From positions 1 to 43,155 of the forward strand of contig CANIHL010000006.1 in the NCBI GenBank assembly GCA_947467375.1: a stretch of DNA of 43,155 bases, read 5' to 3'. A program made the position numbers and the translations under genes. Source of the DNA: Acidimicrobiaceae bacterium. Lineage in GTDB: Bacteria; Actinomycetota; Acidimicrobiia; Acidimicrobiales; Ilumatobacteraceae. Positions 4,647-22,368 of this stretch are shown piece by piece. The first letter of the stretch is position 1. Each line of letters starts with the position of its first letter. Below the pieces are notes generated by a model. The model searched no databases. It had not been told where the DNA came from and worked only from the letters and a program-made list of their open reading frames with translations.

Positions 4647-5681
4647 ATGAGTCGCAATCTTGTAATTAACGGTCGAAACATTGGTGACGAGTATGCGCCA
4701 CTCGTGATTCCAGAAATCGGAATCAACCATGGCGGAGATATCAAACGTGCAATTCAAATGATTGATGATGTTGCAGACGCTGGTGGTGAGTGTGTGAAAT
4801 TTCAAGCACACTCTGTTGACGATGAGATGATTCCAAATGATGTTGTTCCAGCAAACTCCACTCGTTCAATTTGGGACATCATTGCTCAGTGCACGTTGAC
4901 AAACGACGAAGAGCTTGCCTGCAAAAAACATGCTGAAGATCGTGGACTGTTTTTTCTCTCTACTCCATTTTCACGCGAAGCAGCCACAAGGCTCGACAAA
5001 TTAGATGTACCTGCTTTCAAAATCGGTTCTGGTGAGTGCAATAACACTCCATTGATTCGTCACATTGCCCGTTTTGGCAGACCAATCATTGTGAGTACAG
5101 GAATGAACGACATCGAATCCGTTAAGCGAACAGTTGAAGTTCTCGAATCGGAAAATGCTTCCTACGCACTTCTTCACTGCACCAGCATGTACCCAACGCC
5201 GTACAACAAGATTCGTCTTGGTGCAATTACTCAGTTGCGGGAGCTTTTCCCAAACACGGTCATTGGAATTTCTGATCATTCATTGTCAAACTTGCCTTCA
5301 ATTTCTGCAGTTGCATTAGGTGCATCAATCATTGAACGCCACTTCACAAGCGACATGAGTTGGATCGGTGAAGATATTGAAATTTCCGTTGACCCAGCGG
5401 GTCTACAAGAACTCATCGAGGGATCAAGAATTGTTCATCAAGCAAATGGTGGTTCGAAAACTGTGCTTTCTGAGGAGCAGCCCACGATTGACTTTGCATA
5501 CGCGTCAGTTGTAGCAATTCGCGATATCTCTAGCGGCGAAACACTCACCGAAGATAACATTTGGGTGAAACGACCAGGAACTGGTGAAATTCTTGCGTAC
5601 GACTTAGAAAAAGTTATAGGCAAGACCTCCACTCGTGAAATGACGAGAGGACACCAACTGGGTTGGTCAGATGTCAGCTAG
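4647..5681 (+). CDS. neuB: Nonulosonic acid synthase (NeuB/LegI/PseI family)
   Basis: The 344-aa enzyme is predicted to condense phosphoenolpyruvate with an N-acetyl-mannosamine-type sugar to give a nine-carbon 2-keto acid (sialic, legionaminic or related). Family motifs run in order: PEIGINHGGD near the start, VKFQ, FLSTPFSREA, FKIGSGECNN, STGM, LHCTSMYPTP, GISDHS and ERHFTSD. A C-terminal SAF/antifreeze-like domain covers about residues 285-344 (ISSGETLTEDNIWVKRPGTG). The length is normal for the family. A strong Shine-Dalgarno (AAAGGGG, 4635-4641) precedes the ATG by 5 bases. The gene heads neuB-neuC-neuA with an 11-base overlap into the next gene. The GSGECNN and STPFSREA wording looks more like legionaminate synthases than E. 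coli NeuB, but sugar specificity cannot be settled by eye. Confidence 0.92.
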   Translation: MSRNLVINGRNIGDEYAPLVIPEIGINHGGDIKRAIQMIDDVADAGGECVKFQAHSVDDEMIPNDVVPANSTRSIWDIIAQCTLTNDEELACKKHAEDRGLFFLSTPFSREAATRLDKLDVPAFKIGSGECNNTPLIRHIARFGRPIIVSTGMNDIESVKRTVEVLESENASYALLHCTSMYPTPYNKIRLGAITQLRELFPNTVIGISDHSLSNLPSISAVALGASIIERHFTSDMSWIGEDIEISVDPAGLQELIEGSRIVHQANGGSKTVLSEEQPTIDFAYASVVAIRDISSGETLTEDNIWVKRPGTGEILAYDLEKVIGKTSTREMTRGHQLGWSDVS

Positions 5682-6819
5682 TAGGCACGTTGCTTTTCTT
5701 ACTGGGACTCGCGCGGACTACGGCAAGATAAAGCCGCTCATACTCGCGGCTCATGCTGAGGGGTTCAAGGTTTCAGTTTTCGCAACCGGAATGCACATGC
5801 TTGAACGATTCGGTTCGACAATTCTTGAAGTTCGCCGAACACTTCCAGATGAAGTTTTCATCATTCCATTCGAGAATCAATCAGTTGGCGATCCGATGGA
5901 TGTCGTTGTTGCAAACACCATCACAGGTCTGTCGCGTTTCATTCAAGAGAACCAACCAGATCTACTCATTGTCCATGGAGATCGACCAGAGGCCTTAGCT
6001 GGTGCGATTTCTGGCGCGCTCAGCAATACACGAGTGGTGCATATTGAAGGTGGTGAACTTTCGGGAACCATCGATGGTGTGATTCGACACGCTGTGAGCA
6101 AGCTCTCACATATTCACTTAGTGGCCAACGAAGAAGCTAAAAAACGACTGATTCAACTGGGTGAAGACAGCAGCACAATTCACATCATTGGCTCACCAGA
6201 CCTCGACATTATGCTCTCGCCCTCGCTTCCAACACTTGCCGAAGCAAAATCACGCTATGGAATTGAATTTGATACTTACTTCATCGCAATTTTCCATCCA
6301 GTAACCACCGACCTTGAAGCAAGCGCAATTGCGGCGACGGAATTTGTCAATGGACTGATTGAGTCGGGTGAGAATTTTGTTGTTATTCACCCAAACAACG
6401 ACACTGGCTTTGAACGAATTATTAATGAGTACAAACGGCTGGCTGACCACAGCAAGCGATTTAGACAATTTGAATCCTTGCGGTTCGAACATTTCCTTGT
6501 TCTTCTCAAAAATGCACGCGGAATGGTCGGAAACTCGAGCGCCGGTATTCGCGAAGCGCCGCTGTATGGCATCCCAAGTATCGATGTTGGCGATCGCCAA
6601 CGAGGCCGTCATGACAGTGCGTCAATTTCGCAAGTTCCAGCGCGTGCGGAAGAGATCGTCGCGGCTATTCACGGCGCTAAGCAGCAAGGGCCAACGAATT
6701 CAGAACAGGAATTCGGAGATGGTAAATCAACCGAACGTTTCACCGAGTTGCTCCACTCAGGAGTTTTGTTTGAAGCGCGAGTAGACAAAGTATTCGTCGA
6801 TCTAAAGGATGTGATGTAA
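5671..6819 (+). CDS. neuC: Hydrolysing UDP-GlcNAc 2-epimerase (NeuC/LegG type)
   Basis: The 382-aa enzyme should convert a UDP-N-acetylglucosamine-type sugar to the free manno epimer plus UDP, providing the acceptor for NeuB. It opens with the family block TGTRADYGKIKPLI. It also has IVHGDRPEALAGAISGAL, HIEGGELSGTIDGVIRHAVS and, near the C-terminus, GNSSAGIREAPLYGIPSIDV followed by GDRQRGR. These are the nucleotide- and phosphate-binding segments of the GT-B-like 2-epimerase fold. The length is normal. The gene starts inside the 3' end of neuB, and its TAA shares a base with the ATG of neuA, so all three are translationally coupled. It may act on UDP-GlcNAc (sialic route) or on the diacetamido-trideoxy sugar (legionaminic route). 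Confidence 0.9.
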   Translation: MSASRHVAFLTGTRADYGKIKPLILAAHAEGFKVSVFATGMHMLERFGSTILEVRRTLPDEVFIIPFENQSVGDPMDVVVANTITGLSRFIQENQPDLLIVHGDRPEALAGAISGALSNTRVVHIEGGELSGTIDGVIRHAVSKLSHIHLVANEEAKKRLIQLGEDSSTIHIIGSPDLDIMLSPSLPTLAEAKSRYGIEFDTYFIAIFHPVTTDLEASAIAATEFVNGLIESGENFVVIHPNNDTGFERIINEYKRLADHSKRFRQFESLRFEHFLVLLKNARGMVGNSSAGIREAPLYGIPSIDVGDRQRGRHDSASISQVPARAEEIVAAIHGAKQQGPTNSEQEFGDGKSTERFTELLHSGVLFEARVDKVFVDLKDVM

Positions 6820-7508
6820 TGACCTGCATCGCAATAATCCCCGCACGAGGTGGATCAAAAGGCATTCCAAACAAGAACCTTGCTGAGGTAAACGGACAAT
6901 CGCTTGTCACCCGGGCCATTAATTCTGCTGTTCAATCAGGAGTAGTCGATTTTGCTGTCGTTTCAAGCGATGATCCAACCATTCTTGAAGCTGCTGTAAA
7001 AGCTGGCGCAATTGCAATACAGCGTCCTGCAGATCTCGCAACTGACACAGCCGCAATAGAAGATGCGATCGCACATGCTCTACAAAAATTTTCGGAGAGT
7101 CACCCAACTCCCGCGACCTTGGTATTGCTGCAACCCACTTCACCACTCCGACAAGCTTCATCAATTAGCGATGCTGTTCGCCTTTTCGCAGAAAACGGCA
7201 GTGTGGGCAGCGTCTACGGAGTAACAGAAGCCGAGCATCACCCATATAAAACATTTATTGCTACTGATTCCACCTTGCTTCCTGTGGGGAGCATTGAAGA
7301 CCTCTCACGCTCGCGACAAGAATTACCAAAGGCATACCGACAAAGCGGGAGTATCTACGTAGTTGGTGTTCAAGATTTTCTTGAATCGAATTCGTTATAC
7401 GTAAGTCCCGTGCGCTGGATAGAAGTGGGTCGCGAAGAAGCCATTGATGTCGACACCCCTGCTGACTTGGAAGCTGTTCGCCAAGCAGCACGCAATGCCA
7501 ATGGCTAA
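6819..7508 (+). CDS. neuA: CMP-nonulosonate cytidylyltransferase (NeuA/LegF type)
   Basis: The 229-aa enzyme is predicted to activate the nonulosonic acid with CTP to the CMP-sugar. The N-terminus IIPARGGSKGIPNKNLAEVN is the CTP-binding signature of the acylneuraminate cytidylyltransferase family. Further motifs are VSSDD, IQRPADLATD, LLQPTSPLR and the C-terminal DVDTPADLEAV metal/sugar-binding segment. The length matches single-domain bacterial enzymes, with no C-terminal esterase domain. The start codon overlaps the neuC stop as TAATG. This is one of three sugar cytidylyltransferase modules of the NeuA/SpsF class in the locus; the others are at 11720 and 16250. Confidence 0.92.
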   Translation: MTCIAIIPARGGSKGIPNKNLAEVNGQSLVTRAINSAVQSGVVDFAVVSSDDPTILEAAVKAGAIAIQRPADLATDTAAIEDAIAHALQKFSESHPTPATLVLLQPTSPLRQASSISDAVRLFAENGSVGSVYGVTEAEHHPYKTFIATDSTLLPVGSIEDLSRSRQELPKAYRQSGSIYVVGVQDFLESNSLYVSPVRWIEVGREEAIDVDTPADLEAVRQAARNANG

Positions 7509-10859: not shown

Positions 10860-11723
10860 ATGAATCGAATTGTGCTCGGTGGAGCCCAACTTGGTCTCCC
10901 GTATGGAATTTTGAACGGTGGAGAGACACTCAGTCGCGAAGAAGTTGCATGCATTCTTGACACTGCAGCCGCTCATGGGATTGATGCAATTGATACAGCA
11001 ATCGCCTATGGCCAGTCGGAATCAGTAATTGGAGAGACTGCACAAAATCGATTCAAAATCATCTCAAAACTGCCTCCGATTCCACTAGATGTGTCCAATG
11101 TTTCTCAATGGGTGCGGACACAAGTAGATGCATCGCTCTCCCGATTGAAATGCACATCGTTGGATGCACTCCTACTCCATCGCTCACAGGATCTGACCGA
11201 TGCCCATGGCGCCGAACTGTATGCCGCAATAAATTCCCTAAAGGTTGAAAAAATCATTCAACGTTTTGGTGTTTCTATTTACACACCGGACGAACTCAAT
11301 GGCATTATCGAAACATTCGATATTGATGTGGTGCAAGCACCTTTGAATGTGTTTGACCGCAGAATTCTTGGAGTCATTGATCAGCTAACAGCGCTAAACA
11401 TTGAGGTGCATGTTCGATCGGTATTCCTACAAGGTGTTCTCATCGCCAAGCCCGAAAATCGACCTCAAAGATTTCAGCCATGGTCTGATCATTTCGCGCG
11501 GTTTGACGAATGGGTGCTTTCCTCAGGGGTATCAGCAATGGCATGTTGTCTGGGATTTGCTCTCCAGCAGTCAGGTGTTGCGAAGTTGGTAATTGGAACT
11601 ACCAGCCCAGAATCGCTCACTGAAATCATGACTTCTATTCCAAACATGAAGTTGGAAGTACCAGCAGACCTACAGTCTTCAAGTGAACAATTGATTGATC
11701 CACGAGTCTGGAGTGTTGCATGA
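10860..11723 (+). CDS. Aldo/keto reductase of the glycan locus
   Basis: The 287-aa product has the aldo/keto reductase opening IVLGGAQLGLPYGI. It has the catalytic Asp and Tyr in AIDTAIAYGQSESVIG, the Lys in FKIISKLPP and the His-containing strand LDALLLHRS. Later come FGVSIYTPDEL and a C-terminal NADPH-binding segment VAKLVIGTTSPESLTEI. It is slightly shorter than typical 310-330 aa members, as is common for the variants found in nonulosonate and flagellin-glycan clusters. It presumably reduces or oxidises an intermediate of the PseB/PseC branch; the exact substrate cannot be read from sequence. GAGGG precedes the ATG, and the stop overlaps the next ATG (ATGA). Confidence 0.85.
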   Translation: MNRIVLGGAQLGLPYGILNGGETLSREEVACILDTAAAHGIDAIDTAIAYGQSESVIGETAQNRFKIISKLPPIPLDVSNVSQWVRTQVDASLSRLKCTSLDALLLHRSQDLTDAHGAELYAAINSLKVEKIIQRFGVSIYTPDELNGIIETFDIDVVQAPLNVFDRRILGVIDQLTALNIEVHVRSVFLQGVLIAKPENRPQRFQPWSDHFARFDEWVLSSGVSAMACCLGFALQQSGVAKLVIGTTSPESLTEIMTSIPNMKLEVPADLQSSSEQLIDPRVWSVA

Positions 11724-13747
11724 AGATCGTTGCAATAGTTCAAGCCCGACTCGGATCAACACGTTTACCCAACAAGGTCCTCGCCCCAATTGGAGATGTT
11801 CCACTCATCGAGTTTTTACTTGGTCGCATATCGAAGTCTGAGCGTATTTCCAAAATCGTTTTGGCTACTTCAACTAACGAAATTAATAATCAACTTGCCG
11901 CGGTGGTTGAAAATTTGGGATATCAAGTCATCCGCGGATCCGAAAACGATGTTCTTCAACGTTACGTCGATGCCGCAAAGGCAACAAACGCAGACGTCGT
12001 CATCCGCATCACGGGTGACTGCCCGTTTGTCGATCCGCAGCTGGTCGACGAAATGCTTGAAGATTTCATTTCTTCAAATATCGACTACCTGTCGAACACT
12101 GATCCACCTACATTTCCAGACGGCTTTGACATTGAGATATTTAAAGCAAGTGCACTATTGCGATCTGCAGAAATTGCAACTTCACTTTTTGAACGCGAAC
12201 ATGTAACCCCATGTCTGCGCACCAATCCCCTATTTACGCACTCGAATAAGACTGCTGGCGTTGATTCGTCCCATCTTCGCCTAACTGTCGACGAGCAACG
12301 AGATCTAGACGTAATTCGCGGCATTGCAAGCCACTTTGCACCTCGAACCGATTTTTCATTATCCGAAATTCTTGGTGTGATAACCACCAATCCACACCTT
12401 ATTACTGGCAATCTTGGTATTGAGCGAAACGAAGGCGCAACTATGAACTCAGGTCAAAAACTTTGGAAACGTGCACAACACGTAATCCCCGGCGGAAATA
12501 TGTTGCTCTCAAAACGCCCCGATCAATTTTTGCCAGAACATTGGCCAGCATATTTTTCAAAAGCACACGGCTGCATGGTTTGGGATCTTGACGACAATGC
12601 ACTCACCGATATGTCGATCATGGGCATTGGCACCAATTCTCTTGGTTACGGTCACCCAGAAGTTGATGCTGCGGTTGCACAGACTGTTCGCGATGGCAAT
12701 ATGAGCACGCTCAACTGCCCTGAAGAGGTGTACCTGGCCGAACGGCTAGTAGCGATGCATCCATGGGCCGAAATGGCAAGATTTGCTCGTACTGGCGGAG
12801 AGGCCAACGCTATTGCAATTCGTATCGCTCGCGCTGCAACTGGAAAATCGAAAGTTGCAATCTGTGGATACCACGGATGGCATGACTGGTACTTGGCTGC
12901 AAACCTTGGTACTGAAAACACCCTGGCTGGGCATTTGCTCCCAGGCCTTGAGCCAAATGGCGTACCCGAAAATCTTCGTGGTTCAGTCCTCACATTTAAC
13001 TACAACCGAATTGACGAACTTGAAGCGCTTATCTCAACGAATGAGTTAGGCGCAATCATGATGGAAGTTTCACGAAACTTTGGCCCGGAAGATGACTTCT
13101 TGCAGAAGGTTCGTGGCCTTGCTACCAAACACGGAATTGTGTTGATGTTCGATGAATGCACTTCTGGTTTCAGACAAACTTTCGGTGGACTCCACAAGAT
13201 GTACGGCGTAGAGCCAGACATGGCAATGTTTGGCAAAGCATTAGGCAATGGATACGCAATCACCGCAGTTCTCGGTAAGCGCTCCGTCATGGAGGCTGCA
13301 CAAAACACGTTCATCAGCAGCACATTCTGGACTGAGCGGATTGGGCCGACTGCTGCTCTTGCGACACTTGATGTAATGGAACAAACAAAATCTTGGGAAA
13401 TCATTACCAAGATGGGCGTTTACATCACCGAACAATGGCAATCGATTGCTAAATCAACCGGAATTGCTATTAAAACCAGTGGGCTACCTGCACTGACTTC
13501 CTTTTCAGTTGACTCAAAGTTCGCACTTGAATACAAAACGCTTATTACGCAAGAGATGCTGAAAAAGTCATACCTCGCTAGCACGAGTGTTTACGTCGCA
13601 ACAGTTCACACAAAAGAAATTGTTGACCGTTTTTTTACCGAACTAGAGCCAGTATTTGCATTAATCAAAGAATGCGAAGACGGCCGTGACGTAAGTGCTC
13701 TTCTTGACGGTCCGACCTGTAGCTCGGGCTTCAAGCGATTGAATTAA
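11720..13747 (+). CDS. Fusion: SpsF-type cytidylyltransferase + class-III aminotransferase
   Basis: The product is 675 aa. Residues 1 to about 240 are a SpsF/PseF-type cytidylyltransferase: VAIVQARLGSTRLPNKVLAP, RGSENDVLQRYVDAA, RITGDCPFVDPQL and the conserved HLRLTVDEQRDLDVI near its end. Residues about 242-675 are a PLP class-III aminotransferase of the glutamate-1-semialdehyde aminomutase type. That half shows SLGYGHPEVDAAV, RTGGEANAIAIRIARAATGK, GYHGWHDWY, DECTSGFR and the Schiff-base lysine in FGKALGNGYA (about K506). Each half has full domain length. An ATG at 12443 (residue 242) has GAAGG seven bases upstream, so a separate aminotransferase could also be made. The protein probably performs transamination and CMP activation of a nonulosonate or its precursor, which is inferred from domains and neighbours. 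Confidence 0.88.
   Translation: MKIVAIVQARLGSTRLPNKVLAPIGDVPLIEFLLGRISKSERISKIVLATSTNEINNQLAAVVENLGYQVIRGSENDVLQRYVDAAKATNADVVIRITGDCPFVDPQLVDEMLEDFISSNIDYLSNTDPPTFPDGFDIEIFKASALLRSAEIATSLFEREHVTPCLRTNPLFTHSNKTAGVDSSHLRLTVDEQRDLDVIRGIASHFAPRTDFSLSEILGVITTNPHLITGNLGIERNEGATMNSGQKLWKRAQHVIPGGNMLLSKRPDQFLPEHWPAYFSKAHGCMVWDLDDNALTDMSIMGIGTNSLGYGHPEVDAAVAQTVRDGNMSTLNCPEEVYLAERLVAMHPWAEMARFARTGGEANAIAIRIARAATGKSKVAICGYHGWHDWYLAANLGTENTLAGHLLPGLEPNGVPENLRGSVLTFNYNRIDELEALISTNELGAIMMEVSRNFGPEDDFLQKVRGLATKHGIVLMFDECTSGFRQTFGGLHKMYGVEPDMAMFGKALGNGYAITAVLGKRSVMEAAQNTFISSTFWTERIGPTAALATLDVMEQTKSWEIITKMGVYITEQWQSIAKSTGIAIKTSGLPALTSFSVDSKFALEYKTLITQEMLKKSYLASTSVYVATVHTKEIVDRFFTELEPVFALIKECEDGRDVSALLDGPTCSSGFKRLN
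12431..12445 (+). promoter_or_regulatory. Possible internal ribosome binding site and start for the aminotransferase half
   Basis: GAAGG at 12431-12435 is followed by 7 bases and an in-frame ATG at 12443, exactly where the aminotransferase domain begins. The spacing is optimal for initiation. It may be functional internal initiation or a relic of the fusion of two genes. Confidence 0.35.
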
Positions 13748-13759
13748 GGATCACTGTCG

Positions 13760-15277
13760 TTGATTGATTCCAAGTCTGAATGGTTCGATGAAACCAACGT
13801 TGTGTTTCAACAGGTTTTAGACCAGGTTGCATTGAATCTCAATGAGATTCATTCTGTTGATTACAGCACTAGGTACTGGAACATTTTTGTCGGTCCATGG
13901 CTTCAGCAGTTTGTTGACATGGTCATGTTTCGCATATTCGACATTGAGAGAAATACCAATATCCCGATTACAGATTTAGAATATTCTCCGGCAAATTCGC
14001 TGAAGCAATTTCATCAGTACTCAAAATTGCCAAGCTTTATTGAACGGTTGCATTGCGAAACCTTGTTTCATCTCCAAAGCAACAAAAATTCAAGCGCTAT
14101 TCAGAAAACTGCCCCTGATAAATCACCAATAACTTTGCCTCACCGCAGACTCGGTCGGAGCTTCGTATCAGCTACCTACTTACCGCGTAAATCAGAGGCG
14201 ATCCTCCAGTTGCGGTTGGGTCGTCTACCTCGTCGTATCAAGGTTCAAAATGTCCCTGTGTCTATGGGTGTTTCCGACCTTCGACATCTACTCAGCAATA
14301 TAAATGGTGAAAAATCAGTTCGAGCTCAAACAATTATTGCTCTTCTTCCGAAATACATGCCTTGCATCTATGTTGAGCATTACATCGATCTCATGCGGAC
14401 CCAAAAACCTTGGAATTCCAAGCGATACCCAAAAGTTATTTTTACGGCGAATCGACACTTATATGACGATGTCTTCAACTATTGGGCAGCACAGGCAGCA
14501 GAAGTGGGTTGCCAAATAGTTCTGGCGCAACACGGCGGACAATTTGGAATCTCTGAATTTCCTTCATTTTCCGAGAGACATGAACTTGAGATTTCTAATC
14601 GATATCTAACGTGGGGATGGGAGTCATCGGATAATTGCTACCCAGGGTTTGCACTCACCGTTAACAGCGCCCAAAAAATCAAGTCTCAAAAATCGGGCAA
14701 TTTGCTTGTAGTAACTGATGAACTCTGGAAATACCCAAGATCTGTTTTTACTGACCTAAGTGATAACTCTGGATACCTTGAACATCTCGGCAATACCATT
14801 TCATTCCTTCACCCAGATATCAAGGCAGAAGTCTTATTGCGGATACATCATGCAGAAGATCAGTCTGGTGCACCGCAACGAGATTGGTGGATTAAAAACT
14901 TTCCAGGGATTACTCATGACAATGCGAATCTGCCGTTTATGGAAATGCTTTCCAAAAGTCGCTTGGTGCTTATCGCACATAACGGAACATCAATTCCTGA
15001 ATCACTTGCGTTAAACGCGCCGACAATTATCACGTGGAGTGACTCATACATGAAGGTCAGGGAGAGCGCAGAGGCGATTTTTGAAGCCTTGGAAAAAGTT
15101 GGAATATTCCATCGCACACCGGAATCAGCGGCTTCGTTTATTAACTCCATTTGGGGCGATGTCGATGGATGGTGGAATTCACCCACAACAATTGATGCCC
15201 GTAAACAATTCACTGCTCAATACGCACGAACTGTTTCAAGCCCCGTTCGGTTCTTGGCGAAAACATTGCAATTCTGA
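13760..15277 (+). CDS. LIC12162-like putative transferase
   Basis: The product is 505 aa from a TTG at 13760, supported by AAGGA about ten bases upstream. The N-terminal region has the pattern of the LIC12162 family of surface-polysaccharide proteins: LNEIHSVDYSTRYWNIFVGP followed by WLQQFVDM. Further on are KVIFTANRHLYDDVFNYWAA, CQIVLAQHGGQFG and a C-terminal nucleotide-sugar-like segment with LPFMEMLSKSRLVLIAHNGT and SIPESLALNAPTIITW. The late part resembles the C-terminal Rossmann half of GT-B transferases. No membrane helices are seen. The family is known from Leptospira-type O-antigen loci and is annotated only as a putative transferase. Base composition looks more A/T-rich than the flanking metabolic genes. 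I infer a role in attaching an unusual sugar. Confidence 0.72.
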   Translation: MIDSKSEWFDETNVVFQQVLDQVALNLNEIHSVDYSTRYWNIFVGPWLQQFVDMVMFRIFDIERNTNIPITDLEYSPANSLKQFHQYSKLPSFIERLHCETLFHLQSNKNSSAIQKTAPDKSPITLPHRRLGRSFVSATYLPRKSEAILQLRLGRLPRRIKVQNVPVSMGVSDLRHLLSNINGEKSVRAQTIIALLPKYMPCIYVEHYIDLMRTQKPWNSKRYPKVIFTANRHLYDDVFNYWAAQAAEVGCQIVLAQHGGQFGISEFPSFSERHELEISNRYLTWGWESSDNCYPGFALTVNSAQKIKSQKSGNLLVVTDELWKYPRSVFTDLSDNSGYLEHLGNTISFLHPDIKAEVLLRIHHAEDQSGAPQRDWWIKNFPGITHDNANLPFMEMLSKSRLVLIAHNGTSIPESLALNAPTIITWSDSYMKVRESAEAIFEALEKVGIFHRTPESAASFINSIWGDVDGWWNSPTTIDARKQFTAQYARTVSSPVRFLAKTLQF

Positions 15278-15293
15278 ACTACTAAATATCAGA

Positions 15294-15299
15294 TAGGTT
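15294..15299 (+). promoter_or_regulatory. Candidate -10 box inside the glycan locus (2-hydroxyacid dehydrogenase)
   Basis: TAGGTT is followed by 7 bases and a GTG at 15307, the leaderless spacing seen repeatedly in this window. It would give the third sugar block its own promoter. No good -35 is visible. Confidence 0.4.
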
Positions 15300-15306
15300 G
15301 ACCATC

Positions 15307-16233
15307 GTGTCAAAGGTATTGATCACTACTTCTTCGTTCAGTTTGGGCAACTTTGCACAGGCAAAGGCGCTTCACGATGCAGGCATATCTATTGAAATGA
15401 ACCCTCACGGACGACGACTTAGTGAAGACGAAGTTGCCGAACTTGTTGCCAATGACGTGATTGCAATTTTGGCAGGGCTAGAACCACTCACCGATCGCGT
15501 GTTATCGAATGCAAAATCGCTCCGAGTAATCGCTCGATGTGGCACCGGGTTAGACAGCGTTGATTTGGATGCTGCAAGTCGACTCGGTATTGATGTTTTC
15601 AATACTCCAGATGCACCTACCCAGGCGGTAGCCGAACTTACGATTGCGCACATGTTGAATTCATTGCGACATATTTCTGCAACAGATGCAAACATGCGAT
15701 CCGGAAGTTGGACTCCAACAATGGGTTCGCTACTTGCAACGAAAACAATTGGGCTAATCGGCCTTGGACGAATTGGAAATGCGGTTGCCAAACTGGCACA
15801 AGCATTTGGATCGCGTGTCATCGCTTTTGATCCAGTAGTCAGTTCACATAGTTCCGTTGAATTGTTCTCACTTGACGAAGTGCTGCGCCAAGCCGACATT
15901 GTTTCCTTACACGTTCCAATCAATGATCAAACTCATCACATTCTGAATGCACACAACATTTCGCAGATGAAACCTGGATCGATTGTTGTGAATGTTTCGC
16001 GCGGTGGTCTTATTGATGAGTCTGCACTTGAATCGGCATTGAAGTCTCAGCATTTATCTGGTGCGGCACTCGACTGTTTCGAAGACGAGCCTTACACGGG
16101 CCCATTGCTTCAACTTCCCAATGTCCAGGTCACCGCGCATATGGGTTCATACGCACGTGAAACCCGCGACCTTATGGAAGTTGAAGCAAGCACCAACCTG
16201 GTCAATGGACTTCGAAAGCGCGGATTGATCTAA
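15307..16233 (+). CDS. D-isomer-specific 2-hydroxyacid dehydrogenase
   Basis: The product is 308 aa from the GTG at 15307; a TTG nine bases earlier lacks a spaced ribosome site. The NAD-binding motif is TIGLIGLGRIGNAVAKLAQA. The substrate-binding and catalytic region shows IARCGTGLDSVDLDAA, VVNVSRGGLIDESALESAL (catalytic Arg), ALDCFEDEP (Glu) and VTAHMGSYARETRDLM (His). This is the SerA/phosphoglycerate-dehydrogenase-like group without the C-terminal ACT domain. In a locus with two keto-acid cytidylyltransferases it may oxidise or reduce a 2-hydroxy/2-keto acid precursor of a CMP-activated sugar. That role is inferred from context only. Confidence 0.85.
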   Translation: MSKVLITTSSFSLGNFAQAKALHDAGISIEMNPHGRRLSEDEVAELVANDVIAILAGLEPLTDRVLSNAKSLRVIARCGTGLDSVDLDAASRLGIDVFNTPDAPTQAVAELTIAHMLNSLRHISATDANMRSGSWTPTMGSLLATKTIGLIGLGRIGNAVAKLAQAFGSRVIAFDPVVSSHSSVELFSLDEVLRQADIVSLHVPINDQTHHILNAHNISQMKPGSIVVNVSRGGLIDESALESALKSQHLSGAALDCFEDEPYTGPLLQLPNVQVTAHMGSYARETRDLMEVEASTNLVNGLRKRGLI

Positions 16234-16237
16234 CCAA

Positions 16238-16243
16238 TAGACT
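16238..16243 (+). promoter_or_regulatory. Candidate -10 box before second cytidylyltransferase
   Basis: TAGACT is followed by GAGGGC and the ATG at 16250. The 6-base spacing fits a leaderless start, but GAGGG could equally act as a close Shine-Dalgarno on a longer message. Confidence 0.3.
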
Positions 16244-16249
16244 GAGGGC

Positions 16250-16996
16250 ATGATCGCCGCTCTCATGATCGGCCGTGCGGGCAGCACTGGTTTCCCTGGA
16301 AAGAATGTCTCGCTTGTCCTTGGGCGACCGCTTTGCGAGTACCCGCTCATGGCTGCATCGGGTTCCACAAACGTTGACCGAATTTTCATCTCAACTGACT
16401 CGGATCAAATTCGCAAAATCGGCGAAAAGTACAACGCCACACATATTGAACGACCTGCCCATTTAGCCACAAGCACCGCGCTGTCTGATGACGTGTTTGT
16501 GCATGCATTTGGTGTCATTAAAGAGACTTTGGCCGCAGAGGGACACCAGCTCGACTTCCTGGTCTTGTTGTTCGCTAACGCAGCAACGATTAAAACCGAG
16601 TTCATTGATCAGGGCATCGAAATGTTGCGTAACGATCCGAAAATGGATGGTGCAGCAACGACTTCTATCTACAACATGTACAGCCCTTTGCGCGCAAGAA
16701 AAATGGGAGCAGATGGTTACCTCAAGCCTTTCGTTCCATTCGAGGCCATCGGTGATCCTTCAACATTTAATACCAGTCGTGATTCTCAAGGCGATGTGTA
16801 TTACACGGATGGTTCAACCATCGTGATTCGTCCCCGCTCGCTTGAAAACATTTCTGATGGGCTACTTCCTCACAAATGGATGGGACAACACATCGGATCT
16901 ATTCCAAACTGGGGCGGATGCGACGTTGACTATGAGTGGCAAGTACCGATTGTCGAGTTTTGGCTCAAGGCTCACGGTTTTTCGGAAGGTTCGTAA
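16250..16996 (+). CDS. Second NeuA/KdsB-like CMP-sugar cytidylyltransferase
   Basis: The 248-aa product has the cytidylyltransferase opening LMIGRAGSTGFPGKNVSLVL, which fits the GR-GS-GxPGKN consensus. It also has PLCEYPLMAA, IFISTDSD, IERPAHLATSTALSDDVF, FLVLLFANAATI and a C-terminal GGCDVDYEWQVPIVEFWL in the position of the metal-binding Asp segment. It differs clearly from NeuA at 6819 and from the SpsF half at 11720, so it probably activates another acid sugar. LLQPTSP, usual for sialate enzymes, is replaced by LLFANAAT, hinting at a different acceptor. It lies between a 2-hydroxyacid dehydrogenase and a Gfo/Idh/MocA oxidoreductase. Confidence 0.85.
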   Translation: MIAALMIGRAGSTGFPGKNVSLVLGRPLCEYPLMAASGSTNVDRIFISTDSDQIRKIGEKYNATHIERPAHLATSTALSDDVFVHAFGVIKETLAAEGHQLDFLVLLFANAATIKTEFIDQGIEMLRNDPKMDGAATTSIYNMYSPLRARKMGADGYLKPFVPFEAIGDPSTFNTSRDSQGDVYYTDGSTIVIRPRSLENISDGLLPHKWMGQHIGSIPNWGGCDVDYEWQVPIVEFWLKAHGFSEGS

Positions 16997-17011
16997 TAGC
17001 GCATTGCGCTA
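16997..17011 (+). other. Short perfect inverted repeat between cytidylyltransferase and oxidoreductase genes
   Basis: TAGCGC-ATT-GCGCTA lies immediately after the stop of the preceding gene and 10 bases before the next ATG. A 6-bp stem with a 3-base loop and no T-run is weak as a terminator. It may be chance or a small message-processing hairpin. Confidence 0.25.
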
Positions 17012-17021
17012 AAGGCTGCAC

Positions 17022-18068
17022 ATGAGCGAACTTCGAATTGGTATTGCGGGATATGGAGTCATCGGAAAGCGTCGCCGCGGATGTGTTGATGCAAACCCAT
17101 TCATGACCACCGTTGCAGTGTGCGATAAAAAGTTTGCGGACGACGGAACACTTGACGATGGCATTGCGTATTCGCGCGAATACCAACAACTGTTTGACCA
17201 TGATTTAGATGCAGTACTTGTGTGTATGAGTAATGACATGGCAGCCGAGATCACTATTGCTGCCCTAGAACGCGGGCTACATGTGTTTTGTGAAAAACCA
17301 CCAGCTCGAAATATGGCGGAGCTTCTTGCAGTTGTATCTGCCGAAAAATTGCACCCTGGCCTAAAGCTGATGTACGGGTTCAATCATCGGTATCACGATT
17401 CTGTACAAGACGCTCTCAAACTCATTCGGTCTGGCTCACTCGGCAAAATCATCAACATGCGCGGCGTGTATGGCAAGTCGAAACTCATCACGTTTGATCA
17501 AGCTGACTGGCGGGCAAAACGTGAAATGGCCGGCGGCGGCGTGTTGCTTGACCAAGGCATCCACATGGTGGACCTCATGCGCTTATTTGCCGGTGAATTC
17601 ACCGACGTGCATAGTTTTGTTTCAAATAACCATTGGAACTATGACGTAGAAGACAACGCTTACGCGATCATGCGAACTTCAGACGGAGTTGTGGCGATGC
17701 TTAATTCATCAGCAACACAATGGCGCCACCAGTTTTCACTCGACATCAACCTGCAGCGAGGAAGCATCATTCTCCGTGGGATTTTGAGTGGGTCGAAGAG
17801 TTATGGATCTGAGACCATGACCACAGTGTTTGCCAACCCAGACAGGGACAATGGAGATCCAAAAGAGTCAACGCAGGAGTACAGCTTTGACCCATCGTGG
17901 ACAGCAGAGATTGACGCATTCGCTGATGTTGTGCGTAATAACCTGCCAATTGAGAGCGGAACATCGCATGATGCCCTCATGACGATGCAATTGGTGCACA
18001 AGATTTACTACGCCGATCCAAAGTGGCGTGATACCTACTCAATTCCTAATCCCGACTTCACCATTTAG
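17022..18068 (+). CDS. Gfo/Idh/MocA-family sugar oxidoreductase
   Basis: The product is 348 aa. The N-terminal Rossmann motif is IGIAGYGVIGKRRRGCVDAN. Next come VLVCMSNDMAAEITIAAL and the family signature HVFCEKPPARNMAELLAVV (the EKP motif, whose Lys is usually catalytic), then LMYGFNHRYHDSV. The C-terminal half contains GGVLLDQGIHMVDLMRLFAG, with the His/Asp pair typical of the active site. AAAGG seven bases before the ATG is a good ribosome site. Such enzymes oxidise or reduce sugar or cyclitol hydroxyls with NAD(P). In this block, with an AroB-like cyclase and an SDR downstream, a cyclitol or keto-acid substrate is plausible but not shown. Confidence 0.88.
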   Translation: MSELRIGIAGYGVIGKRRRGCVDANPFMTTVAVCDKKFADDGTLDDGIAYSREYQQLFDHDLDAVLVCMSNDMAAEITIAALERGLHVFCEKPPARNMAELLAVVSAEKLHPGLKLMYGFNHRYHDSVQDALKLIRSGSLGKIINMRGVYGKSKLITFDQADWRAKREMAGGGVLLDQGIHMVDLMRLFAGEFTDVHSFVSNNHWNYDVEDNAYAIMRTSDGVVAMLNSSATQWRHQFSLDINLQRGSIILRGILSGSKSYGSETMTTVFANPDRDNGDPKESTQEYSFDPSWTAEIDAFADVVRNNLPIESGTSHDALMTMQLVHKIYYADPKWRDTYSIPNPDFTI

Positions 18069-18081
18069 CACTGGAGCAAAT

Positions 18082-18795
18082 ATGAGCGGTGTGCAAAATA
18101 AAAAAGTTCTCATCACCGGAACATCAAGAGGAATTGGCCTTGCTATAGCCAAGGAATTCCTATCCCAAGGTGCACAGGTATTTGGAACTGCAACAACGAG
18201 CTCTGCACCAAAGGAATTTTCGGGTTTTTGCGCAGCAGACTTCTCGAAGCGAGAAGGCATTCAGAAATGCGTAGATTTCGTTAATGAAGTTCAACCAGAC
18301 ATCGTTATCAACAACGCGGGCATCAACTCCCCTTCTTCGTTTGAAAGTATTGATTCCGAAAGGTTCCTAGAAATACAGCAGGTGAATGTTCTCGCACCGA
18401 TGGAAATTTGTCGTGCAGCGATCCCACACATGGTCAAGCAAAACTGGGGTCGTATCGTCAATATTTCATCGGTATGGAGCAAGATCTCCAAAGAGCAACG
18501 GGCTCCTTACTCTGCGAGCAAGTTTGCGCTCGATGGAATGACTTTGGCGCTTGCTATTGAGTACGCAAAGAGCAATGTATTGGCGAACTGTGTTGCACCA
18601 GGCTTTGTCGATACCGACATGACGCGCGGAATTCTGGGTGACGAGGGAATCAACAAGTTGATGCAAATTGTGCCTATCGGCCGACTTGCTCAGCCTGCAG
18701 AAATAGCAACTTTTGTTGTGTGGCTTGCAGGCGAATCAAACACGTACATCACTGGGCAGAACATTGCAGTTGATGGTGGTTTTACGCGTGCCTGA
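18082..18795 (+). CDS. Short-chain dehydrogenase/reductase (FabG-like)
   Basis: The product is 237 aa from the ATG at 18082, which has GGAG upstream. An earlier ATG at 18028 lies inside the preceding gene and adds unrelated residues. It is a classical SDR: VLITGTSRGIGLAIAKEF (cofactor site), IVINNAGINSP, NISSVWSKI (catalytic Ser) and YSASKFALDGMTLALAIEY (YxxxK). The end GESNTYITGQNIAVDGGF is standard. The stop overlaps the start of the AroB-like gene. It is probably a sugar or cyclitol ketoreductase of the third block rather than a fatty-acid enzyme, judging by location. Confidence 0.88.
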   Translation: MSGVQNKKVLITGTSRGIGLAIAKEFLSQGAQVFGTATTSSAPKEFSGFCAADFSKREGIQKCVDFVNEVQPDIVINNAGINSPSSFESIDSERFLEIQQVNVLAPMEICRAAIPHMVKQNWGRIVNISSVWSKISKEQRAPYSASKFALDGMTLALAIEYAKSNVLANCVAPGFVDTDMTRGILGDEGINKLMQIVPIGRLAQPAEIATFVVWLAGESNTYITGQNIAVDGGFTRA

Positions 18796-19858
18796 TTCAA
18801 TCTCCATTCAGTCGCATCGGGGCACATACGAGGCTCGCTTTACCCCAGAATTGCTGAAGGACCCGTCGGCGCTGCTTGAAGGAGAACCTCACTTCATCAT
18901 TGACAGCAATATTGTTCGCCTCTATTCAACACAGCTTCACAGTGTTCTTAGTCATCCGAATGTCATTCTCGTAGACGCCACCGAGCAAAACAAAAGTCTT
19001 GAATCAGCATCTCAAATCATCACTACTTTGGTCGCGCAAAAGACACGTCGCAACCATCACTTAGTCGCCATCGGCGGCGGAATCATTCAAGATTTAGTGT
19101 GCTTCATTGCAAGCACGCTTCTCCGAGGGGTTTCCTGGCAACTTGTTCCTACAACGCTTCTCGCACAAGCAGATTCATGTATCGGGTCAAAGAGTTCTAT
19201 CAACGTTGGTGACGCGAAAAATATTGTCGGCACCTTTTATCCTCCAACAAAGATTTATATTGACCAGAACTTCCTCCGTACATTGCACCAAAATGAAATC
19301 CACTCGGGAATCGGTGAAATACTGAAAGTCCACGCAATCGACTCTGCAGAATCGTTCAATCGAGTCGCCTCCTCGCTGGAAGCAATAACACACGATCTGG
19401 ATGCAATTCAGCCGTTCATTTACTCCGCACTCACTATCAAAAAGCGATACATCGAAGTTGATGAGTTTGATGAAGGAATACGCAACATTTTCAACTTCGG
19501 GCATAGTTTCGGTCATGCAATTGAAAGTGCAACAAATTTTGGAATTCCACACGGAGTTGCAGTAACCATGGGCATGGATGTTGCCTGCCAGATTGCTGCT
19601 TCACGCAACCTTCTGCCAAACAGTGAGTCAGCCCGAATGCGAACTGCATTGAGGTTGAATTATCAGCCATTCGCCCATATACCGATCCCACTAGATGCTT
19701 CTATGAATGCGCTGTTGAAAGACAAAAAGAACAGCTCTACAGAGCTTGGTCTGATTCTCCCTGTTGGTCAACAGGCGAACATTGAAAAAGTAATGGTTCC
19801 ACCAAATGAAGAGTTTGTAGATCAATTTCGCCATGCTTTGGGTGCAATTGCTCAATGA
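18788..19858 (+). CDS. AroB-like sugar-phosphate cyclase (3-dehydroquinate synthase paralogue)
   Basis: The product is 356 aa from a GTG at 18788, inside the end of the SDR gene; an in-frame ATG at 18773 is an alternative. It shows the 3-dehydroquinate synthase fold signatures: LVAIGGGIIQDLVCFIAS, LLRGVSWQLVPTTLLAQADS, then the variant CIGSKSSIN where AroB has VGGKTAIN, and KNIVGTFYPP. The metal ligands are retained: Glu in SGIGEILKVHAI, His in NIFNFGHSFGHAIE and His in HGVAVTMGM. The substrate-binding K and R around IKKRYIEVDEFDEGIRN and the late KDKKNSS are also present. It is therefore probably an active cyclase. The altered GSK loop and the HGVAV wording separate it from housekeeping AroB; a sugar-derived cyclitol for the glycan is inferred. 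Confidence 0.82.
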   Translation: MPDSISIQSHRGTYEARFTPELLKDPSALLEGEPHFIIDSNIVRLYSTQLHSVLSHPNVILVDATEQNKSLESASQIITTLVAQKTRRNHHLVAIGGGIIQDLVCFIASTLLRGVSWQLVPTTLLAQADSCIGSKSSINVGDAKNIVGTFYPPTKIYIDQNFLRTLHQNEIHSGIGEILKVHAIDSAESFNRVASSLEAITHDLDAIQPFIYSALTIKKRYIEVDEFDEGIRNIFNFGHSFGHAIESATNFGIPHGVAVTMGMDVACQIAASRNLLPNSESARMRTALRLNYQPFAHIPIPLDASMNALLKDKKNSSTELGLILPVGQQANIEKVMVPPNEEFVDQFRHALGAIAQ

Positions 19859-21654
19859 CGAATTCTGTGCGTGTTGACATAGTTGTTAACCAGTCGCAAG
19901 TACGAGATGACGCAGATATCACCATTCTTTGGGATGATTACTCCTCTCAAAGAAATGTTTTTTCTCTTCCTGAATATGTAGAACTTCACGCAGATCGCCT
20001 GCGCCTTCATTTTGCTGAATTTGTAGACCAAGTCGCTCAAACTCCCCTTAGTGGTGGGGCCGTTTCTGATCTTCTTCTTATTCGTGAAGACTTCAGTTAT
20101 TGGTGGATGACTCTTTTTGCATCCACTAGGTGGGACCCAACAAGCAACATCACACATGCTGTGAAATTGTTGGCCTTCGCTGAAATCTGCGGAAAAGTTT
20201 CCCCATCCGAAGTTTTCGTCCATCTACCCAATAAACAGATCTCTGCCGTAATCCAGGCATATTGCACATCCAAGAATCTCGGTATAGCAGAAGTACCTAC
20301 TTTGCATAATCAACCAGCTCTTCGCCTTCCCCGGTTTCGTGCAATTGCTTCCATTGGAAGGTTTGCTCTCACACATCGGCGAGTCAAAACTCTTAGCAGT
20401 GCAGATCAAGCAAGCACGTTGATAGTTGATCACTTTGTGCGGTTTAACGAATCAGCTATCGACGATGGCCGATATGAGTCGCAATACTGGAAATCGCTAG
20501 ACAATGTCTTGTCGTCTATTGACCACGGAACTAGCTGGATCCATCACTATGTTCCAGGGTTTCGCTCAATTCGAGCAACCGAGCAATTGCTCGTAAAGCT
20601 CAATGCAAAGTCTGTAAACAAGCACGCACAATTTGAGACTCGACTAGCTGCCTCTTGTGTGCTCCCAATATTGCGTGAACTGAAGCGTCTGAGGCAGGTG
20701 GCTCGTGCTTCGAATAACCACCCTTCATTCTTTGTCGACACGCGTTCTGGGCTTAATTTCACTGCTCTATTTGCCGAACAATGGATTGAGTCGCTCTGCG
20801 GCAGCACTGCTGCTCGACACCTGATCATCCTTCGCCAACAGGAGGCAGCACTCAAATTGCTTTCTCCGCAAAAGAACGGCCTGTTCTTATGCGAGAACCA
20901 GCCGTGGGAATCTGCGTTTACTTATGCGTGGCACAAGTACGGGCACGGCAAACTTGTGGCCGTTGTTCATGCACCAATTCGGTTTTGGGATTTCCGATAC
21001 TTCACACTCGCTCGTTCGCTACGCAGTAATCAACAAACTGCGACTAGCAAACCGACCCCAACTATCGTCGCAGTGAATAGTGAAATTTCACGAACATTCA
21101 TGGAAATCGCTCAAGCATCCGCAAATCAAATTTGTGAAGTTGAGTCGTTGATGTTCAACCACTTATTCGCCGCGACCTCTGCTGAAAGTTCGCAGAAGAA
21201 TGTCTTGCTTATCGTTGGAGATTTTTTCCCACATCTCAACGAACGACTCATTACTTTGGTCGAGAATGCTGAACACATTCGCAGCACCAATTTAGAGATT
21301 GTCTTCAAGCCCCATCCAATGAACACAAACCTGCCAGATTTTTCGGGTCTTCCAAATGTCCATATATCGACAACCGATTTAGGCGATCTGCTTCCACGCA
21401 CTCACACCGCTATTTCCAGCAACTCAAGCACGGCAGCGCTTGAGTGCTTCCTGTACGGAGTGAAAACGATTTCGTATGTTGACCCCGAAGCGTTGAATTC
21501 CAGCCCCCTGCGCGGAGTCTCGGGGGCAGTATTTGTTACGTCGAGCGAACAACTCGATGTCGCACTCACCGACACTCGCACAGACACCCGAGAGAGCCGA
21601 TCACTTTTGATTCTCGACCGTGCAACACCTCGTTGGAAAGAGCTTCTTAGTTAA
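19855..21654 (+). CDS. TIGR04326-like surface carbohydrate biosynthesis protein
   Basis: The product is 599 aa, starting with ATG in an ATGA overlap with the cyclase gene. The N-terminal third contains LLIREDFSYWWMTLFASTRW, the WW-containing block I associate with the TIGR04326 family of Leptospira-type surface carbohydrate proteins. The C-terminal third has LLIVGDFFPHLNERLITLVE, LEIVFKPHPMNTNLPDF, ISTTDLGDLLPRTHTAISSN and SSTAALECFLYGVKTISYV. These read like the donor-binding domain of a GT-B or polysialyl/CDP-type transferase, where KPHP and SSTAALE are familiar elements. No membrane helices are seen. It may be the transferase for the product of the third block. Family assignment is moderate; biochemical function is unknown. 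Confidence 0.68.
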   Translation: MTNSVRVDIVVNQSQVRDDADITILWDDYSSQRNVFSLPEYVELHADRLRLHFAEFVDQVAQTPLSGGAVSDLLLIREDFSYWWMTLFASTRWDPTSNITHAVKLLAFAEICGKVSPSEVFVHLPNKQISAVIQAYCTSKNLGIAEVPTLHNQPALRLPRFRAIASIGRFALTHRRVKTLSSADQASTLIVDHFVRFNESAIDDGRYESQYWKSLDNVLSSIDHGTSWIHHYVPGFRSIRATEQLLVKLNAKSVNKHAQFETRLAASCVLPILRELKRLRQVARASNNHPSFFVDTRSGLNFTALFAEQWIESLCGSTAARHLIILRQQEAALKLLSPQKNGLFLCENQPWESAFTYAWHKYGHGKLVAVVHAPIRFWDFRYFTLARSLRSNQQTATSKPTPTIVAVNSEISRTFMEIAQASANQICEVESLMFNHLFAATSAESSQKNVLLIVGDFFPHLNERLITLVENAEHIRSTNLEIVFKPHPMNTNLPDFSGLPNVHISTTDLGDLLPRTHTAISSNSSTAALECFLYGVKTISYVDPEALNSSPLRGVSGAVFVTSSEQLDVALTDTRTDTRESRSLLILDRATPRWKELLS

Positions 21655-21678: not shown

Positions 21679-22368
21679 GTGAGTGGAAATTCTGAACGTT
21701 CGCTCATTCAACCAGAGATTTTTGAATCAGAAACTGAAGCGTTCAGGGCTGCAAGCGTCATGCTGGTCAATGCAATTTCTTCGAGCATCGCAGCAAAGAG
21801 CTCCTGCGTTCTTGTTCTTGCAGGAGGCAACTCCGCAAATTCAGTAATGCGCTTTGCCTTCCAATCTGACATCAATTGGTCACAGGTGCATCTTGTGCTT
21901 GCCGATGAGCGTTGTGTGCCAATTAGCCACGTTGATCGCAATGATGTTGCGCTGACAGCGCTCGTTGAATCTACTTCACTTGTCCATCGTCCCGTCATTC
22001 ACGGCATACCCGCAGAACTTGGTCCACATCTTGGTGCGGAGAAATTTGCTGAACAGTTAGCTGTAATTGGACAACCGGACATCGCGCTACTCGGTGTTGC
22101 TGACGACGGCCACATAGCAAGTTTGTTTCCAAATTCAACTGCCTTATCAGCATCTGGAGATGCTGCATCTGTTACCGACAGCCCAAAAGAGCCTCGGGAG
22201 CGCGTTTCCTGTTCTTTGGCTTATCTCACACGAGCCACATACAGAATTGCCCTGCAAACGGGGCATAATAAGAGGGATATTTTCGTGCGACTCCAGCAGG
22301 GAGAGCGACTTCCGCTTGCATTATTTTCACCAACTCACTGGTTCATGGATTACAACGCGACTCGTTGA
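21679..22368 (+). CDS. 6-phosphogluconolactonase-like protein
   Basis: The 229-aa product belongs to the glucosamine-6-phosphate isomerase/6-phosphogluconolactonase superfamily. It has CVLVLAGGNSANSVMRF (GGNS phosphate loop), VHLVLADERCVPISHVDRND and IALLGVADDGHIASLFPNS, the last being the DGHxASLFP signature of Pgl. ATYRIALQTGHNKRDIF fits the C-terminal part. The length is normal (about 230-250). Housekeeping Pgl normally sits with zwf/opcA/tal; here it lies within a polysaccharide locus behind its own candidate leaderless promoter. It may supply or process a sugar phosphate for the AroB-like or rfbF pathway, or be a displaced housekeeping copy. Confidence 0.8.
   Translation: MSGNSERSLIQPEIFESETEAFRAASVMLVNAISSSIAAKSSCVLVLAGGNSANSVMRFAFQSDINWSQVHLVLADERCVPISHVDRNDVALTALVESTSLVHRPVIHGIPAELGPHLGAEKFAEQLAVIGQPDIALLGVADDGHIASLFPNSTALSASGDAASVTDSPKEPRERVSCSLAYLTRATYRIALQTGHNKRDIFVRLQQGERLPLALFSPTHWFMDYNATR

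Follow-up and report, generated by a model that had tools for sequence, protein, structure and literature searches.

A recurrent gene block around an AroB-related cyclase of the TIGR04425 family, with a possible role in CMP-dependent surface glycan synthesis

The window analysed here is the whole of a 43,155-nucleotide stretch from an Acidimicrobiaceae bacterium (contig CANIHL010000006.1 of assembly GCA_947467375.1; 1.68 Mb in 101 contigs, 92% complete), in which five open reading frames (ORFs) follow one another head to tail on the + strand without interruption and encode a D-2-hydroxyacid dehydrogenase (DHDH), a cytidylyltransferase (CT), a Gfo/Idh/MocA oxidoreductase (GFO), an SDR and an AroB-like cyclase. 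An initial annotation had proposed these five genes as a route to a CMP-activated sugar. All five are intact, Pfam supports each of the families it had named, and the catalytic motifs are intact in all three oxidoreductases (DHDH, GFO and SDR); the DHDH start is now placed at 15298 (TTG) instead of 15307. The results presented below partly support the earlier interpretation; what emerges is a conserved pathway around a cyclase family that has been named but not characterised. The genes of the block and the two that follow it are:

15298 (TTG) to 16233, + strand: D-2-hydroxyacid dehydrogenase (DHDH, SerA-like); Pfam PF02826/PF00389 (2-Hacid_dh_C), co-occurrence, intact catalytic motifs
16250 to 16996, + strand: atypical cytidylyltransferase (CT) of the NeuA/PseF/KdsB superfamily; CTP_transf_3 PF02348, 48 bits
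17022 to 18068, + strand: Gfo/Idh/MocA oxidoreductase (GFO); GFO_IDH_MocA, intact CEKPP motif
18082 to 18795, + strand: SDR, FabG-like; adh_short, intact YSASK
18788 (GTG) to 19858, + strand: AroB-like sugar phosphate cyclase, TIGR04425; DHQ_synthase/DHQS_C, residues, trees, structure model
19855 to 21654, + strand: TIGR04326 surface carbohydrate protein, candidate transferase; 325.4 bits against a cut-off of 250
21679 to 22368, + strand: 6-phosphogluconolactonase/glucosamine-6-P isomerase family protein, PF01182; role in the block uncertain

The SDR and cyclase ORFs overlap by 8 bases and the cyclase overlaps the next gene (start 19855) by 4 bases, so the SDR, cyclase and TIGR04326 genes look translationally coupled.

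A cyclase family distinct from AroB

The window cyclase scored 448.1 bits against the NCBIfam model TIGR04425, above the curated cut-off of 400, and 265.3 bits against the AroB equivalog TIGR01357, below the cut-off of 305. TIGR04425 is a hypothetical equivalog named "AroB-related putative sugar phosphate phospholyase (cyclizing)", without an assigned function. A further DHQ_synthase match lies on a different contig of the genome. This other AroB shares 29.5% identity with the window cyclase, and the ORFs adjoining it are shikimate-kinase-like and chorismate-synthase-like (both by sequence reading). In a tree of 87 rows, the family rows form a single clade (support 100/99) away from the rows of AroB, of 2-deoxy-scyllo-inosose synthase (DOIS) and of the sedoheptulose 7-phosphate cyclase EEVS; locus L171, which had been labelled AroB by a script, falls inside the family clade beside L089 and L090. 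On a smaller tree, forcing the genome's own AroB into the family clade was rejected (approximately unbiased (AU) test, p = 1.15e-6). In addition, at least one further ordinary DHQ_synthase gene is present besides the cyclase in 7/7 other carrier genomes tested. Thus, the cyclase neither groups with housekeeping AroB nor is the sole copy in its genome, an outcome that the initial annotation had named as refuting its proposal.

To compare active sites, we aligned 53 family members with 27 AroB, 3 EEVS, 2 DOIS and 2 other rows, numbering cyclase residues from the P at 18791. The window cyclase has the metal ligands E176, H238 and H254, together with D128, K134, K143, N144, R112, R231, N235, H242 and K312/K313, which confirms the earlier claim that the three ligands and the key Lys/Arg/His residues are kept. 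Invariant in 53/53 members are D128, K134, K143, N144, E176, K217, R231, N235, H238, H242, H254, K312 and K313, and of these K217, R231, N235, H242 and K313 are AroB-type residues. In contrast, the EEVS rows have M at K217, D at N235 and P at H242, and these M, D and P are absent from 53/53 TIGR04425 members; the DOIS rows have A/G at R231 and E at N235. Sequences of solved EEVS (ValA among them), DDGS and DOIS structures entered this comparison. The family differs from AroB at Q100 within GGGxxQD (52/53), at C130 (53/53) and often at S133 (34/53, with G in the other 19), where AroB has G, S and G, respectively. The GSK that the initial annotation had singled out in place of GGK is therefore present, at 132-134, but is not an oddity, since S stands there in 34/53 members. 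At position 179, which corresponds to AroB K197, most members of the family have K or H. We take the residue correspondence to the Aspergillus dehydroquinate synthase (DHQS) numbering as given, in which K250/R264 presumably hold the carboxylate of DAHP (3-deoxy-D-arabino-heptulosonate 7-phosphate).

The AlphaFold2 model of the cyclase, with a pLDDT of 93.5, matches AroB structures best (VIA, with Z values of up to 39.5 and an rmsd of 2.5 over 337 residues), and DHQS matches lie at Z 33-39. Since the Z values of DOIS and EEVS are only slightly lower, the fold alone does not choose among the three. With its DHQS fold, NAD loop, metal ligands and catalytic Lys/Arg/His, the cyclase belongs to the sugar phosphate cyclase superfamily, as do DOIS and EEVS, the latter also sharing the mechanism class. 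DOIS also works with aminotransferases in aminocyclitol pathways. Taken together, the equivalog score below the cut-off, the residue comparison, the tree and the AU test reject housekeeping AroB as the identity of the cyclase, and the differing residues and separate clades reject EEVS and DOIS; the cyclase is a member of a widespread family distinct from AroB. It shares with AroB the fold and all of the catalytic and substrate residues compared. Because the AroB-type residues are kept, including those that differ in EEVS and DOIS, the active site suggests an AroB-type mechanism, and R231 and N235 would favour a DAHP-like acid over sedoheptulose 7-phosphate or glucose 6-phosphate.

Carriers were counted as matches above the TIGR04425 cut-off. 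There is one among 296 genomes sampled from the window's phylum and one among 395 sampled from its class, in both cases the window's own genome, and the same-genus genome G145 has no TIGR04425 member. In the phyla of the Undibacterium, Cytophagaceae and Syntrophaceae carriers the counts are 5/398, 8/296 and 2/198, respectively. Matches below the cut-off score at most about 296 bits, except one at 398.7, and the family is therefore well separated. Scanning viral contigs with the bare window protein gave no matches; an alignment with three hand-written motif variants guided the choice of search pattern only, and the conclusions rest on real sequences. The viral contigs yielded 59 loci with cyclase relatives at 34-48% identity. 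That L072 encodes a DnaB-like phage helicase and L049 a phage portal-like protein points to genuine phage genomes for at least part of these contigs, and a T4 gp55-like label for one viral-contig gene cluster was dropped because it has no PHROGs match. Because the pattern used to scan genome contigs also fits all AroB, ordinary AroB make up the majority of the 80 loci obtained with it, and these were used as controls. Searches of the literature for TIGR04425 and for O-antigen cyclitols returned no description of this block, no paper in the library searched mentions TIGR04425, and no AroB-like gene is named for the bradyrhizose gene cluster in the excerpt of its report (PMC4743980).

Gene contexts shared by the family

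After removal of near-duplicates, 73 loci were sorted by their neighbours within 8 kb; since loci were chosen and thresholds set after the neighbourhoods had been seen, and since the sequences are related, Fisher values are descriptive only. The window belongs to type D (n = 14), in which a GFO gene is found in 14 loci, DHDH in 13, SDR in 13, a cytidylyltransferase in 12 and an SIS gene in 11. All 14 type-A loci come from the viral collection and have an SDR, an SIS, a class III aminotransferase and a cytidylyltransferase (14/14 each, the type being partly defined by the last two), and 13/14 have a GT29-sialyltransferase-like gene. Type B (n = 13) has NeuB-like, acetolactate-synthase-like and SDR genes in 13/13 loci, with RfbH in 9 and a ROK-like gene in 7, and type C (n = 23) has HpcH/HpaI-like, acetolactate-synthase-like and SDR genes in 23/23, with RfbH in 16. 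Of the rest, 3 have the thiamine enzyme alone and 6 fall outside all types. Neither a cytidylyltransferase nor an SIS gene occurs in any of the 39 loci with a YerE-like thiamine enzyme.

The set of DHDH, GFO, SIS and SDR genes accompanies the cyclase in 10/11 bacterial type-D loci, which span several phyla, compared to 0/71 ordinary-AroB control loci. The co-conservation predicted for the five window genes is thus borne out in that the block recurs elsewhere; however, the core found elsewhere is DHDH-GFO-SIS-SDR-cyclase, and the window lacks the SIS. In almost all loci of the family the SDR adjoins the cyclase, and GFO shows the strongest conservation of all partners, with 386-541 bits in the four nearest named genomes. 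A GmhA-like SIS lies near the cyclase in 25/28 loci of types A and D. Because type D is not a single clade on the tree, the gene contexts must have been exchanged. Dedicated aldol enzymes are missing from most type-D blocks, and an HpaI-like aldolase is also present in three type-D loci (L085, L204 and L207).

Several observations concern single contexts. In the type-A loci (L030, L031, L034, L035, L037, L039, L040, L041, L043, L044, L046, L050, L054 and L078) the gene order is shuffled, the SIS is GmhA-like and the NeuA-like cytidylyltransferase often carries a cupin domain. A HisC-like aminotransferase, a second GFO, a KdsB and a methyltransferase form a group beside the block in L082 (11976-15755), L084 (1592-6516) and L199 (869-7519), perhaps a separate amino-ulosonic acid pathway. 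A PF04199 (kynurenine-formamidase-like) hydrolase lies near the cyclase in four type-D loci: L083 (10236-10895), L085 (11020-11694), L203 (7388-8056) and L207 (7590-8279).

In L202, L205, L206, L208 and L209, as in the viral type-B and type-C loci, the cyclase stands beside acetolactate-synthase-like and NeuB-/HpcH-like genes, often with RfbH (722 bits in L202). The acetolactate-synthase-like enzyme and RfbH are parts of YerE-type branched-sugar pathways (PMC12247030), and the product of type-B and type-C loci is possibly a branched sugar of the YerE type that includes a carbocyclic part. According to the available portion of that review, ErwE prefers hydroxylated 2-keto acid donors. Aldol enzymes can make such acids. 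These pathways differ from the window in that the same portion of PMC12247030 mentions no cyclase and that no such thiamine enzyme is among the window's listed genes.

The cytidylyltransferase and the TIGR04326 protein

At residue 106 the window CT has the motif LLFANAAT in place of the QPTSP of NeuA-type enzymes, but it keeps the nucleotide loop RAGSTGFPGKN (residue 9) and a DVD site (residue 225). Its motif was rightly called atypical in the initial annotation; the window's own NeuA has QPTSPLR. The nearest solved structures are CMP-NeuAc synthetases, and the nearest look-alikes are in L049 (LLLCNSPT) and L065. The CT scored 66.5 bits against the PseF model, whose cut-off is 205.7, and PseF was rejected as its identity; the KdsB models gave 24-38 bits against cut-offs of 193-255. 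That 12/14 type-D blocks have a cytidylyltransferase close to the cyclase supports CMP activation, although this enzyme is usually KdsB-like or NeuA/PseF-like and not of the window's subtype. Elsewhere in the same cluster, the window has nonulosonic acid genes at 4647-7508 (NeuB, NeuC and the ordinary NeuA, by sequence reading) and, at 11720-13747, a single ORF that combines an SpsF-like cytidylyltransferase domain (11720-12300) with a glutamate-1-semialdehyde-aminomutase-like domain.

The TIGR04326 protein encoded directly downstream of the cyclase carries KPHP and SNSSTAALE motifs; in bacterial sialyltransferases, an HP motif contributes to the binding of CMP-Neu5Ac (PMC2169525). Its model has a low-to-moderate pLDDT of 65, and mainly the C-terminal half resembles GT-B donor domains, those of heptosyltransferases and KpsC (Z 10-11); no sialyltransferase is among the best fold-comparison rows, which does not exclude a likeness to one. 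The protein is a possible GT-B glycosyltransferase and a candidate transferase of the block. TIGR04326 recurs in only 4/14 type-D loci at the threshold used, with homologues in L082, L084, L085 and, weakly, L199. Immediately upstream of the block, at 13760-15277, lies a gene for a TIGR04331 protein (LIC12162 family transferase; 303 bits against a cut-off of 225). The PF01182 gene at 21679-22368 may be the ordinary 6-phosphogluconolactonase of the genome, because it is the sole PF01182 gene found there.

A proposed pathway and its alternatives

We tentatively propose, at a little under even confidence, that the block encodes a sugar-phosphate-cyclase pathway dedicated to a surface glycan, with a DAHP-like substrate and a CMP-activated product. 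From the computed family membership, the intact AroB-type active site, the separateness from AroB and the recurrence of the gene set, we infer a substrate, an order of steps and a product as follows. The TIGR04425 cyclase would start from a C7 2-keto sugar phosphate, for which a DAHP-like heptulosonate 7-phosphate is the likeliest candidate, and convert it into a carbocyclic ketone by the dehydroquinate-synthase mechanism (transient oxidation by NAD, loss of phosphate, re-reduction, ring opening and aldol closure). In types B and C, the NeuB-like or HpcH/HpaI-like enzyme could supply a 3-deoxy-2-keto acid from phosphoenolpyruvate or pyruvate and a tetrose phosphate. The SDR would then reduce the ring ketone, the simplest role for the one partner that is found almost everywhere. 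After this step the routes would part, to CMP activation in types A and D and, in types B and C, probably to a YerE-like reaction that joins the product to a CDP-4-keto-3,6-dideoxy sugar, as RfbH and the available portion of the review PMC12247030 suggest. In the window, GFO and DHDH may adjust the oxidation state or stereochemistry, the CT would turn the finished unit into its CMP derivative, and the GT-B-like TIGR04326 protein may pass the unit to the glycan.

Several points weigh against this proposal. In this superfamily, CMP enzymes normally use the anomeric hydroxyl of a 2-keto acid, but the cyclase would consume the 2-keto group; either another position is activated, or the CMP enzyme works on another sugar, or the proposed cyclase substrate is wrong. 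No precedent for the chemistry of a CMP-activated carbocycle was found. The usual motif is gone from the window CT, whose subtype occurred in just two further loci. In addition, no match to the GmhA-like SIS isomerase was found in the window or in its 92%-complete genome, the close relative G688 (locus L198) has the SDR and cyclase without GFO, DHDH and SIS in the stretch read, and position 179 is split evenly among the 16 type-D members (8 with K, 8 with H).

One way out of the first difficulty is that the CT serves another sugar of the same cluster and that the cyclase product is used otherwise, which we consider unlikely. The NeuB, NeuC and NeuA-like genes (4647-7508) and the SpsF-like domain (11720-12300) bring CMP chemistry to the window anyway, and in L082, L084 and L199 the KdsB lies in or near the HisC-GFO2-KdsB-methyltransferase group, possibly with a pathway of its own. 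However, the window CT sits inside the block, between DHDH and GFO, and a cytidylyltransferase accompanies the cyclase in 12/14 type-D and 14/14 type-A loci (the latter partly defined by it) and in 0/39 loci with the thiamine enzyme. It is also unlikely that the cyclase uses sedoheptulose 7-phosphate or a stereoisomer, like valiolone synthases, to give a C7 cyclitol, with phosphorylation or another kind of activation to follow, since the EEVS residues (D at N235, P at H242 and M at K217) occur in 0/53 members, all of which have the AroB residues. The neighbours speak for such a substrate: the SIS near the cyclase in 25/28 CMP-type loci belongs to the sedoheptulose 7-phosphate isomerase family, and a ROK-like gene adjoins the cyclase in 7/13 type-B (NeuB) loci as well as at annotated sedoheptulose 7-phosphate cyclases on Streptomyces clavuligerus and Rhizobium rhizogenes plasmids, the ROK label being a sequence reading of a cluster unnamed by NCBIfam and Pfam. 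The S. clavuligerus plasmid also has a pgl gene beside the cyclase, as in the window.

Another alternative would be a second dehydroquinate synthase that carries out the ordinary conversion of DAHP to dehydroquinate and feeds quinate- or shikimate-type acids into the glycan. The complete AroB-type active site, the AroB enzymes as best solved sequence matches and the scarcity of dedicated aldol enzymes in type-D blocks are consistent with it. We nevertheless judge it decidedly unlikely, given the deep separate clade with its own Q100 and C130, the score under the AroB equivalog cut-off and the other AroB kept by carriers, and the dedicated NeuB-/HpcH-like enzymes of two contexts suggest a different heptulosonate there.

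A wider form of the dedicated pathway, in which bacteria and some of their viruses build a CMP-activated carbocyclic analogue of a sialic- or Kdo-like acid for surface glycans through TIGR04425 closure of a heptulosonate phosphate, seems quite unlikely on the present evidence. If it were true, the product would be, to our knowledge, the first carbocyclic sugar with CMP activation, and the AroB superfamily would gain a new class of substrate. Taken together, these results give a family that was named by NCBI but had no assigned function a few repeated gene contexts, CMP activation or YerE/RfbH-like, in cellular genomes and in the virus collection, and these contexts narrow the possible chemistry so far that a few assays would cover it. 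Should the product be a carbocyclic sugar acid, bacterial surface glycans would gain a new kind of building block and the sugar phosphate cyclase superfamily a new reaction.

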